From positions 366-64,365 of IMG/VR virus record IMGVR_UViG_3300030328_002122: 64,000 nucleotides of DNA; one strand, written 5' to 3'. A program made the translations under genes and the position numbers. Positions 52,878-56,158 of this stretch are shown here, one piece after another. Origin of the DNA: a virus. The notes beneath the pieces are model-generated. The model made no database searches. It saw nothing but the letters and a program-made list of their open reading frames with translations, and was not told the origin of the DNA. The first letter of the stretch is position 1. Each line of letters starts with the position of its first letter.

Positions 52878-54230
52878 ATGTTCAATACAGAACATTTACA
52901 GGAAAAGTGGCAACCAGTTCTTGAGCATAAAAATCTTCCAAAGATTGATGATGCTTATCGTAGGGCTGTTACCACAATTATCCTAGAAAACCAAGAAAAG
53001 GCTATGAAAGAAGATAGTAACTTCTTATCAGAAGCCGCACCAACAAGTAATCTTGCCGCTTCTATGGACGGCAAATATGATCCAATTCTAATTTCATTAG
53101 TACGAAGATCAATGCCAAATCTTATCGCTTATGATATTGCTGGTGTTCAACCAATGACAGGGCCAACTGGTCTTATCTTTGCAATGCGAGCAAACACAGT
53201 AGACAATGATGATGGTACAGGCCCAAGAGCAACTGCTGAAGCTCTTTACAATGAACCAGATACAGCGTTTTCTGCAACTAAGAGTGATGACAATATTCCA
53301 GGCACTGCTGGTCATGACGATACAAACCCAGCTGCACTTAATGATGATGATGGTGGTACTACATACACTGTCGGAGCTGGAATGTCATCTGCAACTGCTG
53401 AAGCTTTAGGTGATGCTGTTACTAACAGAATCGCTGAGATGTCATTTTCAATCGACAAAACAACTGTTACTGCAAAATCAAGAGCATTAAGAGCAGAATA
53501 CACAATGGAACTTGCACAAGACTTGAAAGCTATTCATGGTCTAGACGCAGAAACCGAATTGTCAAATATTCTTTCTGCTGAAATTCTTGCAGAAATTAAC
53601 AGAGAAGTTGTAAGATCAATATACATAACTGCAAAAGAAGGTGCAGTTACAGGTTCAACTGCAACTGCTGGTCAGTTTGACATGGACGTAGACTCAAATG
53701 GTCGTTGGTCAGTAGAGAAGTTCAAAGGACTTATGTTCCAACTTGAAAGAGAAGCTAATGCAATCGGACAAGAAACTCGTAGAGGAAAAGGTAACATGGT
53801 TATCTGTTCTTCTGATGTTGCTTCTGCACTTCAAATGGCTGGTATGTTAGATTACGCTCCAGCTCTTAACAATAACCTAAATGTTGATGATACTGGAAAC
53901 ACTTTTGCTGGTGTTCTCAATGGTAGACATAAAGTTTACATTGATCCATATTCATCAAATGCTGGTGGTTCTAATCCAGAAAACCAGTTTTTCGTTTCTG
54001 GTTATAAGGGTGCATCACCATATGATGCTGGTATTTTCTACTGCCCATATGTACCATTACAAATGGTTCGTGCAGTAGGTGAGCATACATTCCAACCAAA
54101 GATTGGATTTAAGACACGATATGGTCTTGCTGCCAATCCTTTTGCACAGGGAACAACCGCTGGTGCTGGTGCTCTTAATGCTGACTCAAATGTATACTAC
54201 AGAAGAGTTATGGTTAAAAACTTAATGTAA
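52878..54230 (+). CDS. gp23: Major capsid protein gp23
   Basis: 450 residues (T4 gp23 is 521), HK97-fold capsid subunit. 'LVRRSMPNLIAYDIAGVQPM' followed by TGPTGLIFAMR corresponds to T4 'VRRAIPNLIAFDICGVQPMNSPTGQVFALR'. The N-terminal propeptide ends at L50-S51-E52 before AAPTS, a fit to the gp21 cleavage rule LxE, so the mature subunit likely starts at Ala53. The end 'RYGLAANPFAQ...YYRRVMVKNLM' is conserved. Upstream is a one-mismatch late box (AATAAATA, 52834-52841) and AAGGAGAAA. A strong terminator follows. Confidence 0.98.
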   Translation: MFNTEHLQEKWQPVLEHKNLPKIDDAYRRAVTTIILENQEKAMKEDSNFLSEAAPTSNLAASMDGKYDPILISLVRRSMPNLIAYDIAGVQPMTGPTGLIFAMRANTVDNDDGTGPRATAEALYNEPDTAFSATKSDDNIPGTAGHDDTNPAALNDDDGGTTYTVGAGMSSATAEALGDAVTNRIAEMSFSIDKTTVTAKSRALRAEYTMELAQDLKAIHGLDAETELSNILSAEILAEINREVVRSIYITAKEGAVTGSTATAGQFDMDVDSNGRWSVEKFKGLMFQLEREANAIGQETRRGKGNMVICSSDVASALQMAGMLDYAPALNNNLNVDDTGNTFAGVLNGRHKVYIDPYSSNAGGSNPENQFFVSGYKGASPYDAGIFYCPYVPLQMVRAVGEHTFQPKIGFKTRYGLAANPFAQGTTAGAGALNADSNVYYRRVMVKNLM

Positions 54231-54304: not shown

Positions 54305-55123
54305 ATGACACAACTTATATCACCTAAAAAATTTACACACGCAGTTGGCCTTTTGAGGTCATTTTTTTTATCTAAAGGTTTTGAAGAAGTACACACACAA
54401 AACCGACTATCAATACTAGCGGCTTGCGAAGATCCAGAAAATGTCGCAACGTATAATTACATGGGAAACATATGGCCCCTGCCACAAACTGGACAAATGT
54501 GGTTAGAACATGAACTATTAACACGCCCCTCTAGTAAGGGGTTTTTTTGTGTTTCCACTAGCTATAGACAAGAACCAAATGCAATTCCTGGCAGACATGA
54601 AACAATATTTCCAATGTTTGAGTTTGAGATGCCTGGCGATATTAATGATCTCAAAAATATGGAAATAGAATTATGTAAATACATGGGATTTCCAGAATTA
54701 GAGATACAGACATACAATGAATGGAGTGACCAGTTTAATGTAAAAGAACTGGAAAACGAACACGAAGAAATTATTGATTGGGGTATGATTACAAGTTTTC
54801 CAGAGTTTACGTCACCATTTTGGAATATGTCAAGATATGAAGATGGAGTTACCAGTAAAAAGATTGATGTAATTCTAAATGGTATGGAAACAATAGGTTC
54901 TGCTGAAAGAAGTACAGACAAAGATCAAATGAAAAATACATTTGAAACAATATCAAATGGTGAGTATGCAGAATTATTATACAAACTATTTGGAAAAGAA
55001 AGAGTACAAAAAGAGTTAGATGAATTTTTGAAATATGATTTCTTCCCAAGAGTTGGGGGTGGAATTGGTATGACAAGAATGATCTCTGCGTTAGATAGAT
55101 TAGAAATGGGATTAGCGGCATGA
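54305..55123 (+). CDS. Orphan class II aminoacyl-tRNA synthetase-like catalytic core (Asp/AsnRS type)
   Basis: 272 residues. Motif 2 is visible as 'TSYRQEPNAIPGRHETIFPM' (R88, E90, R97-H98), then FEFEM. 'KIDVILNGMETIGSAERS' (186-203) corresponds to the D..LNG.EI..GS.R segment of Asp/AsnRS, and motif 3 is GGGIGMTRM (251-259, with Arg258). The N-terminal OB-fold anticodon-binding domain of real AspRS/AsnRS is absent. The product may be an amino-acid-activating enzyme like the AsnA family or archaeal AsnRS paralogues, or an unusual tRNA ligase. It lies between two terminator-like hairpins and an odd tRNA. ATP-binding arginines are kept, so activity is plausible; substrate unknown. Confidence 0.8.
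   Translation: MTQLISPKKFTHAVGLLRSFFLSKGFEEVHTQNRLSILAACEDPENVATYNYMGNIWPLPQTGQMWLEHELLTRPSSKGFFCVSTSYRQEPNAIPGRHETIFPMFEFEMPGDINDLKNMEIELCKYMGFPELEIQTYNEWSDQFNVKELENEHEEIIDWGMITSFPEFTSPFWNMSRYEDGVTSKKIDVILNGMETIGSAERSTDKDQMKNTFETISNGEYAELLYKLFGKERVQKELDEFLKYDFFPRVGGGIGMTRMISALDRLEMGLAA
54526..54548 (+). terminator. Terminator-like hairpin inside the synthetase-like gene
   Basis: CCCCT (54526-54530) pairs with AGGGG (54537-54541) round a six-base loop, followed by seven Ts (54542-54548). It is about 220 bases into the coding region (codons ~74-82). It may cause premature termination or attenuation, or be a coincidence of the Arg-Pro-Ser-Ser-Lys-Gly-Phe-Phe codons. Confidence 0.45.
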
Positions 55124-55188
55124 ACAATGAAGAATACAAAAAATATGTAAACCTATTGTGTAAGATATGGAACATTAAAAATGAGTAA
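55120..55188 (+). CDS. Possible 22-residue micro-ORF
   Basis: ATG 55120 overlaps the synthetase-like stop as ATGA, and the 22-codon frame (MNNEEYKKYVNLLCKIWNIK, then NE) ends over the ATG of the next gene. The next gene has no convincing ribosome site, so this frame could carry ribosomes across by coupling. No known family; may be fortuitous. Confidence 0.25.
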   Translation: MNNEEYKKYVNLLCKIWNIKNE

Positions 55189-55423
55189 TGAAGAAAATCA
55201 AATTGAAGATTTTAAAGATCAAGATAAAGCTGCTTTAAGAAGACAACTTGCTCAACTTAGAATGGCAAGATATACATTAGTTGCTATGGGAGTATTTACT
55301 TTTTCAATGTTTTTCGTATCAGTTGAACGAGTTAATGCTTTATCCGATATTTCAAATTTATTTTATCTCTCTGGTGCTGGAATTGTTGGAGCTTATATGG
55401 GATTTAATTCAAAGAGGTTTTAA
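55181..55423 (+). CDS. Small two-helix membrane protein
   Basis: 80 residues. A charged N terminus (1-30, 'ENQIEDFKDQDKAALRRQLA') is followed by a membrane segment ~31-47 (YTLVAMGVFTFSMFFVS) and a second ~58-75 (ISNLFYLSGAGIVGAYMGF). The end is a short basic KRF. Two short helices and this size fit a holin or a small membrane modulator, but nothing proves lysis function. It overlaps the micro-ORF, has a weak ribosome site, and lies six bases before the tRNA, so transcript processing at the tRNA would define its 3' end. Confidence 0.6.
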   Translation: MSNEENQIEDFKDQDKAALRRQLAQLRMARYTLVAMGVFTFSMFFVSVERVNALSDISNLFYLSGAGIVGAYMGFNSKRF

Positions 55424-55428
55424 AATAG

Positions 55429-55517
55429 TTTGAGGTGGTGGAATTGGTAGACACGCACAACTGTTTATTGTGTGCAAATATTTTTGCGTGAAGGTTCGAG
55501 CCCTTCCCTCAAAGCCA
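55429..55517 (+). tRNA. Class II tRNA with GTT anticodon (Leu-like body)
   Basis: 89-base cloverleaf. Acceptor stem 55429-55435 (TTTGAGG) pairs with 55507-55513 (CCTCAAA). D-arm stem GTG/CAC encloses GAATTGGTAGA. Anticodon stem CACAA (55456-55460) / TTGTG (55468-55472) has loop CTGTTTA, so anticodon GTT at 55463-55465. A 17-base variable arm has stem GCAAA/TTTGC. T-arm GAAGG / TTCGAGC / CCTTC. G73 and an encoded CCA follow. The body is Leu-like class II, yet the anticodon and G73 are Asn-type, and U1-A72 is also present. Base 37 is U rather than the usual purine. Amino acid identity is uncertain (Asn, Ser or Leu). Confidence 0.85.
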
Positions 55518-55537: not shown

Positions 55538-55555
55538 CTTGTGAAGGAGATTACT

Positions 55556-56158
55556 ATGGCAGTTAATTTTAACTCTTTAAACAGACAACCTAGTACTTTA
55601 GATTATACACACCCAACACAGTTTAGGTTTGATATTCTAAAATTGCCTAATGTTGAATACACGATAACGTCTGCAAATGTTCCAGGCATTAGTATGTCTG
55701 GAGATGCAATAATGAATACTAGATTCAAAGGTGTTCCATTTATGGGAGATACTCTCATTTACGAAACACTTAATGTAACTTTTATAGTTCAAGAAGATTT
55801 AGCAAACTATCGTGAATTGCATGATTGGATAACTGGTATAGGATTTCCAAAAGACAACGAACAGTTTGACAGTGCTTTAAGAAACGAAATACAAACAAAG
55901 CCTGGTGCATTACCAGTAATTCCTAAACAGACTTCTAATGTAAGAAATGCACCAGTTTTAAATCCATCTGTATTGACAAGTGATGCAACAATGCATATAC
56001 TGTCTAATAAAAACAATCCGAAGATCAGAGTTAATTTTAGAGGACTTTATCCATCATCATTGTCTGGTGTAACATATAATACACAAGATTCAACTGGAGA
56101 AGGAATAACTGCTGATGTTCAGTTTCAATTTGATTTGTATGAGTTTCAAGTATTATAA
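55556..56158 (+). CDS. Tail completion/tube-like protein (gene 3 position)
   Basis: 200 residues from ATG 55556; the GTG at 55541 would place the GAAGGAG ribosome site inside the gene, so I reject it. The sequence 'YTHPTQFRFDILKLPNVEYT' followed by 'ITSANVPGISMSGDAIMNTR' and ending 'TADVQFQFDLYEFQVL' is reminiscent of tube-fold proteins (gp19/gp3 type). It lies between gene 23 and uvsY, where marine T4-like phages carry gene 3, the tube-completion factor. Identity with gp3 is inferred from position and fold-like pattern. It has its own late promoter. Confidence 0.55.
   Translation: MAVNFNSLNRQPSTLDYTHPTQFRFDILKLPNVEYTITSANVPGISMSGDAIMNTRFKGVPFMGDTLIYETLNVTFIVQEDLANYRELHDWITGIGFPKDNEQFDSALRNEIQTKPGALPVIPKQTSNVRNAPVLNPSVLTSDATMHILSNKNNPKIRVNFRGLYPSSLSGVTYNTQDSTGEGITADVQFQFDLYEFQVL

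Follow-up and report, generated by a model that had tools for sequence, protein, structure and literature searches.

In the phage genome considered here, the catalytic core of a class II aminoacyl-tRNA synthetase, referred to below as X, is encoded together with an atypical tRNA that carries a GTT anticodon. The pairing of both genes is not a product of chance, and they constitute a strongly co-inherited unit. In addition, the genes found in their company suggest that the pair serves the synthesis of pyrimidines rather than ordinary protein synthesis. Perhaps, and we would place this somewhat below an even chance, X and its tRNA make up a tRNA-linked enzyme module that feeds the synthesis of dihydroorotate. 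In the open literature that was searched, no account of the pair or of X was found, nor an activity for any member of the X family; a 2010 survey of cyanophages contains a 'tRNA ligase', T4-GC194, only as a table entry (PMC3037559).

The window, that is, the whole stretch of 64,000 nucleotides of phage DNA that was analysed, holds the pair in the slot between gp23 and gp3 (Table 1), where it had been placed by a sequence-only reading. That reading had also put the core and the tRNA 305 bases apart on the same strand, which is indeed the distance from the end of X to the tRNA. It had seen only a small membrane protein gene in between; this gene is present, and an open reading frame of 22 codons accompanies it. 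The spacing of 305 nt is particular to the window genome, since its closest relatives, with X proteins 92-93% identical, have 4 nt at this place, and a local insertion accounts for the wide gap. The spacer and the small membrane protein were considered as a functional part of the system and discarded, because the closest relatives lack them. A short conserved reading frame (MNNEEYKKYVNLLCKIWNIKNE in the window) overlaps or directly follows X in several phages, for instance, those of loci L070 and L384.

Table 1. Features of the locus of X and its partner tRNA (positions in the window)
Feature	Position	Strand	Remarks
gp23 major capsid protein	52878..54230	+	left flank of the slot; PF07068, 1.2e-143
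X, AsnRS-like class II catalytic core, 272 aa	54305..55123	+	PF00152, phrog_29758 / T4-GC194 'tRNA ligase'; without anticodon-binding domain
22-codon open reading frame	55121..55189	+	ATGA overlap with the stop codon of X; belongs to the local insertion; similar short frame after X in L070, L384
80-aa small membrane-type protein	55181..55423	+	inserted between X and tRNA in the window genome; weak relative in L474
Partner tRNA body	55429..55514	+	class II, U1-A72, G73, anticodon loop CTGTTTA (U37), 17-nt variable arm
Anticodon GTT	55463..55465	+	
Variable arm of partner tRNA	55473..55489	+	17 nt in the window, up to 44 nt in relatives
Encoded CCA end	55515..55517	+	
gp3-like tail protein	55541..56158	+	right flank of the slot; 1e-18 to P-SSM7 gp3

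According to ARAGORN, this GTT tRNA (55429-55517 with its CCA, plus strand) is the sole tRNA of the window and even of the entire 145-kb phage record, and Rfam at gathering thresholds gave no match in the window. Many relatives of the tRNA are called Ile, Glu, Asp or Arg by ARAGORN because of their long variable arm, and a covariance model was therefore built. The unit occupies different genome slots: it lies between gp23 and gp3 in P-SSM7, as in the window, and near purH in P-SSM2. In the RefSeq record of the latter (NC_006883.2, locus L002), the 'tRNA-Asn' PSSM2_199 is annotated at 164094-164179, while the sequence puts the tRNA at 162083-162168, directly after X.

Protein X matches the class II D/K/N core of Pfam (PF00152, 3.7e-14) and a phage family of unknown function (phrog_29758, 8.8e-146). 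Its AlphaFold model has a mean pLDDT of 91.6, and a structure search with it returned AsnRS (Z 26.6), AspRS (25.4), archaeal asparagine synthetase A (23.9) and GenX (23.6), in this order. The predicted fold resembles the catalytic core of human AsnRS (8h53; 2.2 A over 241 residues, 21% identity), to which it aligns from residue 242 on. Unlike AsnRS, X has no N-terminal OB-fold domain for anticodon binding, as all of its 272 residues belong to the core, which bears out the sequence-only reading on this point. R88, E90, H98 and R258, the residues of class II motifs 2 and 3, are invariant. These residues and a pocket of the AsnRS type (GQMWLE, R202; SSQLYLE in Brugia AsnRS) are common to phage and cellular X, and active-site residues are mostly identical between the two. 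By contrast, the score of X with the asnS equivalog model is far below the cut-off (18.4 against 342.6 bits), and where class II motif 1 of AsnRS has its proline, X has, according to the alignment, an invariant glutamine at about that place. This residue (Q32 in the window), together with C41 and C82, is invariant in the 62 of 62 X proteins aligned, and the three are, as judged from conservation, candidates for special chemistry. The net charge of X is -17, an acidity that is untypical for a protein that binds RNA.

Two other proteins come close to X in fold. Archaeal asparagine synthetase A (AsnS-like, 3p8t/3rex), which forms asparagine from aspartate and ammonia, is, like X, a stand-alone core of about 290 residues without an anticodon domain. 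Nevertheless, X scores just 21.9 bits with the model of this family, whose cut-off is 389, and the archaeal enzyme is not known to have a tRNA or pyr genes as partners. EpmA/GenX, a paralogue of the LysRS core, is a core freed from tRNA charging; it belongs to a different family and acts on EF-P, i.e., it modifies a protein.

The association of X with the tRNA was examined from both sides. A first set of loci came from P-SSM2, P-SSM5 and P-SSM7, two megaphages, the window, and 80 viral contigs, the best 80 of at least 598 X candidates, which are ranked by similarity and redundant. Of the 83 loci in this set whose downstream sequence was long enough, 80 have the tRNA at most 700 nt 3′ of X, and the distance is 4-11 nt in nearly all of these; the three without it are L049 and both megaphage loci, whose X relatives (44-47% identity) lack an adjacent partner. 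In the reverse direction, the viral contigs were searched with a pattern derived solely from the tRNA. Of the 78 matches, 73, that is, all of the informative loci, have X directly upstream; in the remaining 5, the fetched stretch ends no more than 131 nt from the tRNA. Thus, the co-occurrence proposed as a check by the sequence-only reading holds from the side of the tRNA, as no orphan partner tRNA was seen among these matches. From the side of X it holds in part. When more distant X genes were sampled, the tRNA was present in 351 of 394 phage-type loci and absent from 43, mainly distant homologues; this count uses a hand list of loci whose tRNA was missed by the strict scan and shown by other scans, and L164 is counted among the 43 even though a tRNA was found 225 nt downstream. 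In L346 and L377, a stretch that by eye resembles a tmRNA follows X in place of the partner tRNA. In the tree of X, phages with the tRNA form essentially one large clade plus the deep-branching L508, and tRNA presence requires 15 parsimony changes, against 62 with shuffled labels. In general, the pair recurs hundreds of times in viral contigs, at a usual distance of 4-14 nt.

The tRNA itself combines features of tRNA-Leu and tRNA-Asn. As the sequence-only reading had noticed, it is odd: its body is of class II with a D-arm (TGGTGGAATTGGTAGACACG) like that of tRNA-Leu, and it carries the Asn determinants G73 and G34-U35-U36. In contrast to tRNA-Leu, which has A73 and a Leu anticodon, it shares U1-A72, G73 and GUU with tRNA-Asn; it differs from tRNA-Asn, a class I tRNA with a short variable arm, in its long variable arm, in U37 and, in some cases, in the loss of U33. 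U1-A72 and G73 are kept in 80 of 80 tRNA loci of the first set, and both are demanded by the later strict scan. The anticodon is GUU in 183 of 187 distinct partner tRNAs (tRNA scans being heuristic), and GUC, the Asp anticodon, occurs in a few. The D- and T-loops are normal and CCA is often encoded. Covariation supports the fold, with 98.8% of cells paired, two-sided changes in 21 of 24 pairs and none of 500 shuffles equalling the real alignment. Variable arms measure between 3 and 44 nt (at least 10 nt in 185/187), and long ones fold as a hairpin; those of L027, L042 and L052, with 41-44 nt, are unusually long for a bacterial-type tRNA.

The anticodon loop, as far as its sequence tells, is not of the type found in decoding tRNAs. 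A pyrimidine occupies position 37 in 171 of 187 partner tRNAs (T in 170), against 7 of 149 other tRNAs in the same loci, of which 142 have a purine (Fisher p 7e-66). U33 is missing from 34 of 187, against 2 of 149 controls (p 1e-7); both p values overstate independence because the tRNA sequences are related. The window tRNA retains U33 (CTGTTTA) and has U37, while loops such as CAGTTTA, CGGTTTA or CTGTCGA are found in deep clades. In bacteria, the identity of tRNA-Asn is determined by G73, G34, U35, U36 and A37, and G73 also counteracts LeuRS as an antideterminant (PMC9976931). The window tRNA and nearly all of its relatives carry these determinants with the exception of A37, replaced by U37. 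The conservation of GUU in the partner of a protein without an anticodon domain suggests another reader of the anticodon. Consequently, as the anticodon is out of reach of any domain of X, the host AsnRS or AspRS may charge this tRNA.

The link to pyrimidines comes from gene company. Family searches and tblastn identified genuine pyrD-like (PF01180), pyrE (TIGR00336, over cut-off) and pyrF (PF00215; in L416 also TIGR01740 over cut-off) genes in phage X loci, as well as a short phosphoribosyltransferase gene. The latter falls into one family with the phosphoribosyltransferase of cellular pyrD-X-pyrF operons; orotate phosphoribosyltransferases are the best structural matches of its model (Z 12.4), with other phosphoribosyltransferases 1-2 units behind. 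A compact order, pyrD-X-tRNA-phosphoribosyltransferase, is seen in L033. In 327 distinct phage loci there are 43 pyr-type matches, distributed over 35 loci, and 28 of the 43 lie within 650 nt of X, against 8.8 expected under uniform placement in the available flanks; these counts come from X-bearing phage loci only. A match to a DHODH-like protein, to pyrE (over cut-off) or to the phosphoribosyltransferase was seen in 10 of 27 larger phage records with X, a set that includes many fragments. The window phage itself encodes a PyrD-like protein (about 136558-137292 of the record) and the short, OPRT-like phosphoribosyltransferase (about 138644-139054), both some 80 kb from X. In 50,697 phage records, pyrE of this type was found among cyanophage isolates in P-SSM2, P-SSM5 and P-SSM7 only, which are the very isolates that have X and the tRNA; there it is far from X and unlinked, and the co-occurrence amounts to two lineages because P-SSM2 and P-SSM5 are close relatives. 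In short, pyrD, pyrE or pyrF either neighbours X or occurs in the same genome in these cases.

X is also found in cells. Homologues that are mostly 53-62% identical occur in Patescibacteria, Bacteroidota, Dependentiae, Midichloriaceae, other Alphaproteobacteria, DPANN archaea and Pasteurella atlantica; with just 5 strong matches in 239 patescibacterial genomes, X is not a trait of that phylum. Nearly all cellular copies lack an adjacent partner tRNA. Since most of these genomes are devoid of it, X does not need a special tRNA in general. Candidates for the partner from cellular genomes were rejected, as the matches of its model were mostly tRNA-Leu, with Ser and Tyr tRNAs and one ordinary tRNA-Asn. 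Separately, a Chitinophagales MAG that holds X elsewhere has, on a chromosomal contig (L542, G004:C347, 7654-7768, minus strand), a class II tRNA with U1-A72, G73, GUC and a variable arm of 46 nt, a single case missed by ARAGORN. Of 28 X-bearing cellular genomes, 15 have AsnRS over cut-off; thus, X cannot simply be equated with the AsnRS of such cells, and its role as a replacement for that enzyme was rejected for those 15.

Around cellular X (80 loci), pyrE or a fused pyrEF is nearby in 21 and pyrD in 19. In the complete chromosome of P. atlantica, the order is pyrD-X-pyrF-phosphoribosyltransferase. Across the 25-28 X-bearing cellular genomes, many of which are MAGs and several incomplete, PyrD is over cut-off in 19, CarB in 3 and PyrB (aspartate carbamoyltransferase) in 2, whereas none of the three is lacking from the 14 control genomes. 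A search with models other than the E. coli-type PyrC model placed PyrC over cut-off in 2 of 25 genomes and gave weaker matches (PyrC-like amidohydrolases) in several Bacteroidota. Cellular X thus often sits in pyr clusters, and the genomes concerned are mostly without CarB and PyrB (L087-L166, G001-G025). An unrecognised bacterial route to dihydroorotate is possible, and it would be of interest apart from phages.

From the pairing, the features of the tRNA, the predicted fold and the gene associations, we infer a substrate, a charging step, a product and a chemistry. X, a core derived from AsnRS, would activate asparagine or aspartate with ATP. The partner tRNA, with ends of the Asn type and an anticodon loop not kept for decoding, would act as its dedicated acceptor or carrier. 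The aminoacyl-tRNA, or the aminoacyl-adenylate, would then be consumed to make dihydroorotate, so that carbamoyl phosphate synthetase and aspartate carbamoyltransferase are bypassed, and PyrD, orotate phosphoribosyltransferase and PyrF would take dihydroorotate to UMP. Speculating from general chemistry, activated asparagine might be N-carboxylated, its side-chain amide might attack and the ring might close to dihydroorotate. In cells, the same enzyme may use ordinary tRNA-Asn or no tRNA, while phages would supply their own and thereby spare X a competition with translation for host tRNA-Asn. An aminoacyl-tRNA is already a metabolic substrate in the Glu-tRNA-dependent synthesis of tetrapyrroles by GluTR; the concept is alike, although that pathway has no dedicated tRNA or synthetase core and leads to another product. 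Taken in its full form, as a tRNA-dependent route from Asn (or Asp) to dihydroorotate without carbamoyl phosphate synthetase, PyrB or PyrC, which in marine phages runs on a core of AsnRS origin with a dedicated tRNA that does not decode, and in scattered bacteria on ordinary tRNA-Asn, the proposal is rather unlikely.

The pyrimidine module draws its support from a nearly invariant pairing in both directions, the odd loop, the AsnRS-type pocket and the pyr gene context. Against it, a pyr gene is nearby in just the 35 phage loci and 10 larger records given above, most cellular X genes are without the partner, GUU is kept, AsnRS is present in the 15 cellular genomes and X is acidic; moreover, PyrC-like amidohydrolases remain in several Bacteroidota and several genomes are incomplete MAGs. 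A similarly improbable alternative to the detailed route is that X synthesizes pyrimidines or asparagine independently of tRNA, in the manner of archaeal AsnA or other paralogues of the class II core, and that the host AsnRS or AspRS charges the tRNA, which acts beside X as a supply or sink of Asn. The cellular clades, mostly without tRNA and often in pyr clusters, agree with this, as do the GUU and G73 that a host AsnRS reads, the few GUC anticodons and a predicted fold near that of AsnA. Nevertheless, the tight spacing of the pair and the lack of orphan tRNAs in the viral contigs searched call for a direct link, and the sequence of X is far from the AsnA model.

The sequence-only reading had proposed a synthetase-tRNA pair. 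This unit is genuine and co-inherited, but its role as a charging pair for translation is so far not supported by the anticodon loop or the pyrimidine context. Such an orthogonal pair, in which X loads Asn onto the tRNA for the phage to read AAC/AAU, for instance, if host tRNA-Asn runs short or is cleaved by anticodon nucleases, is unlikely, and a shade more so than the tRNA-independent enzyme. The prevailing GUU, the normal D- and T-loops, the frequently encoded CCA and the presence of G73, G34, U35 and U36 (PMC9976931) would suit it well. By contrast, U37 is almost universal where bacterial Asn identity asks for A37 (PMC9976931), U33 is lost in a part of the tRNAs and hardly ever in control tRNAs of the same loci, and the pyr genes are left unaccounted for. 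Two further explanations appear very improbable. A decoy or regulator that is never charged, directed at anticodon nucleases or at the expression of X, would fit the odd loop and the highly variable long arm, but hardly the strict U1-A72, G73 and T-arm, the encoded CCA or a position 3′ and not 5′ of X. The different genome slots might also indicate that X and the tRNA hitch-hike in a mobile cassette without a joint function; however, their pairing survives wide divergence, as the few parsimony changes show.

The pair is frequent in marine viral contigs, where it has so far been annotated only as 'tRNA ligase' plus 'tRNA-Asn'; it would represent a synthetase core that phages encode along with a tRNA dedicated to it. 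As such, X and its tRNA would offer a natural candidate for an orthogonal pair of synthetase and tRNA. If the link to pyrimidines is right, a gap would be closed in bacteria that have PyrD, PyrE and PyrF but lack CarAB and PyrB, and nucleotide synthesis would join the few pathways that run on aminoacyl-tRNA.
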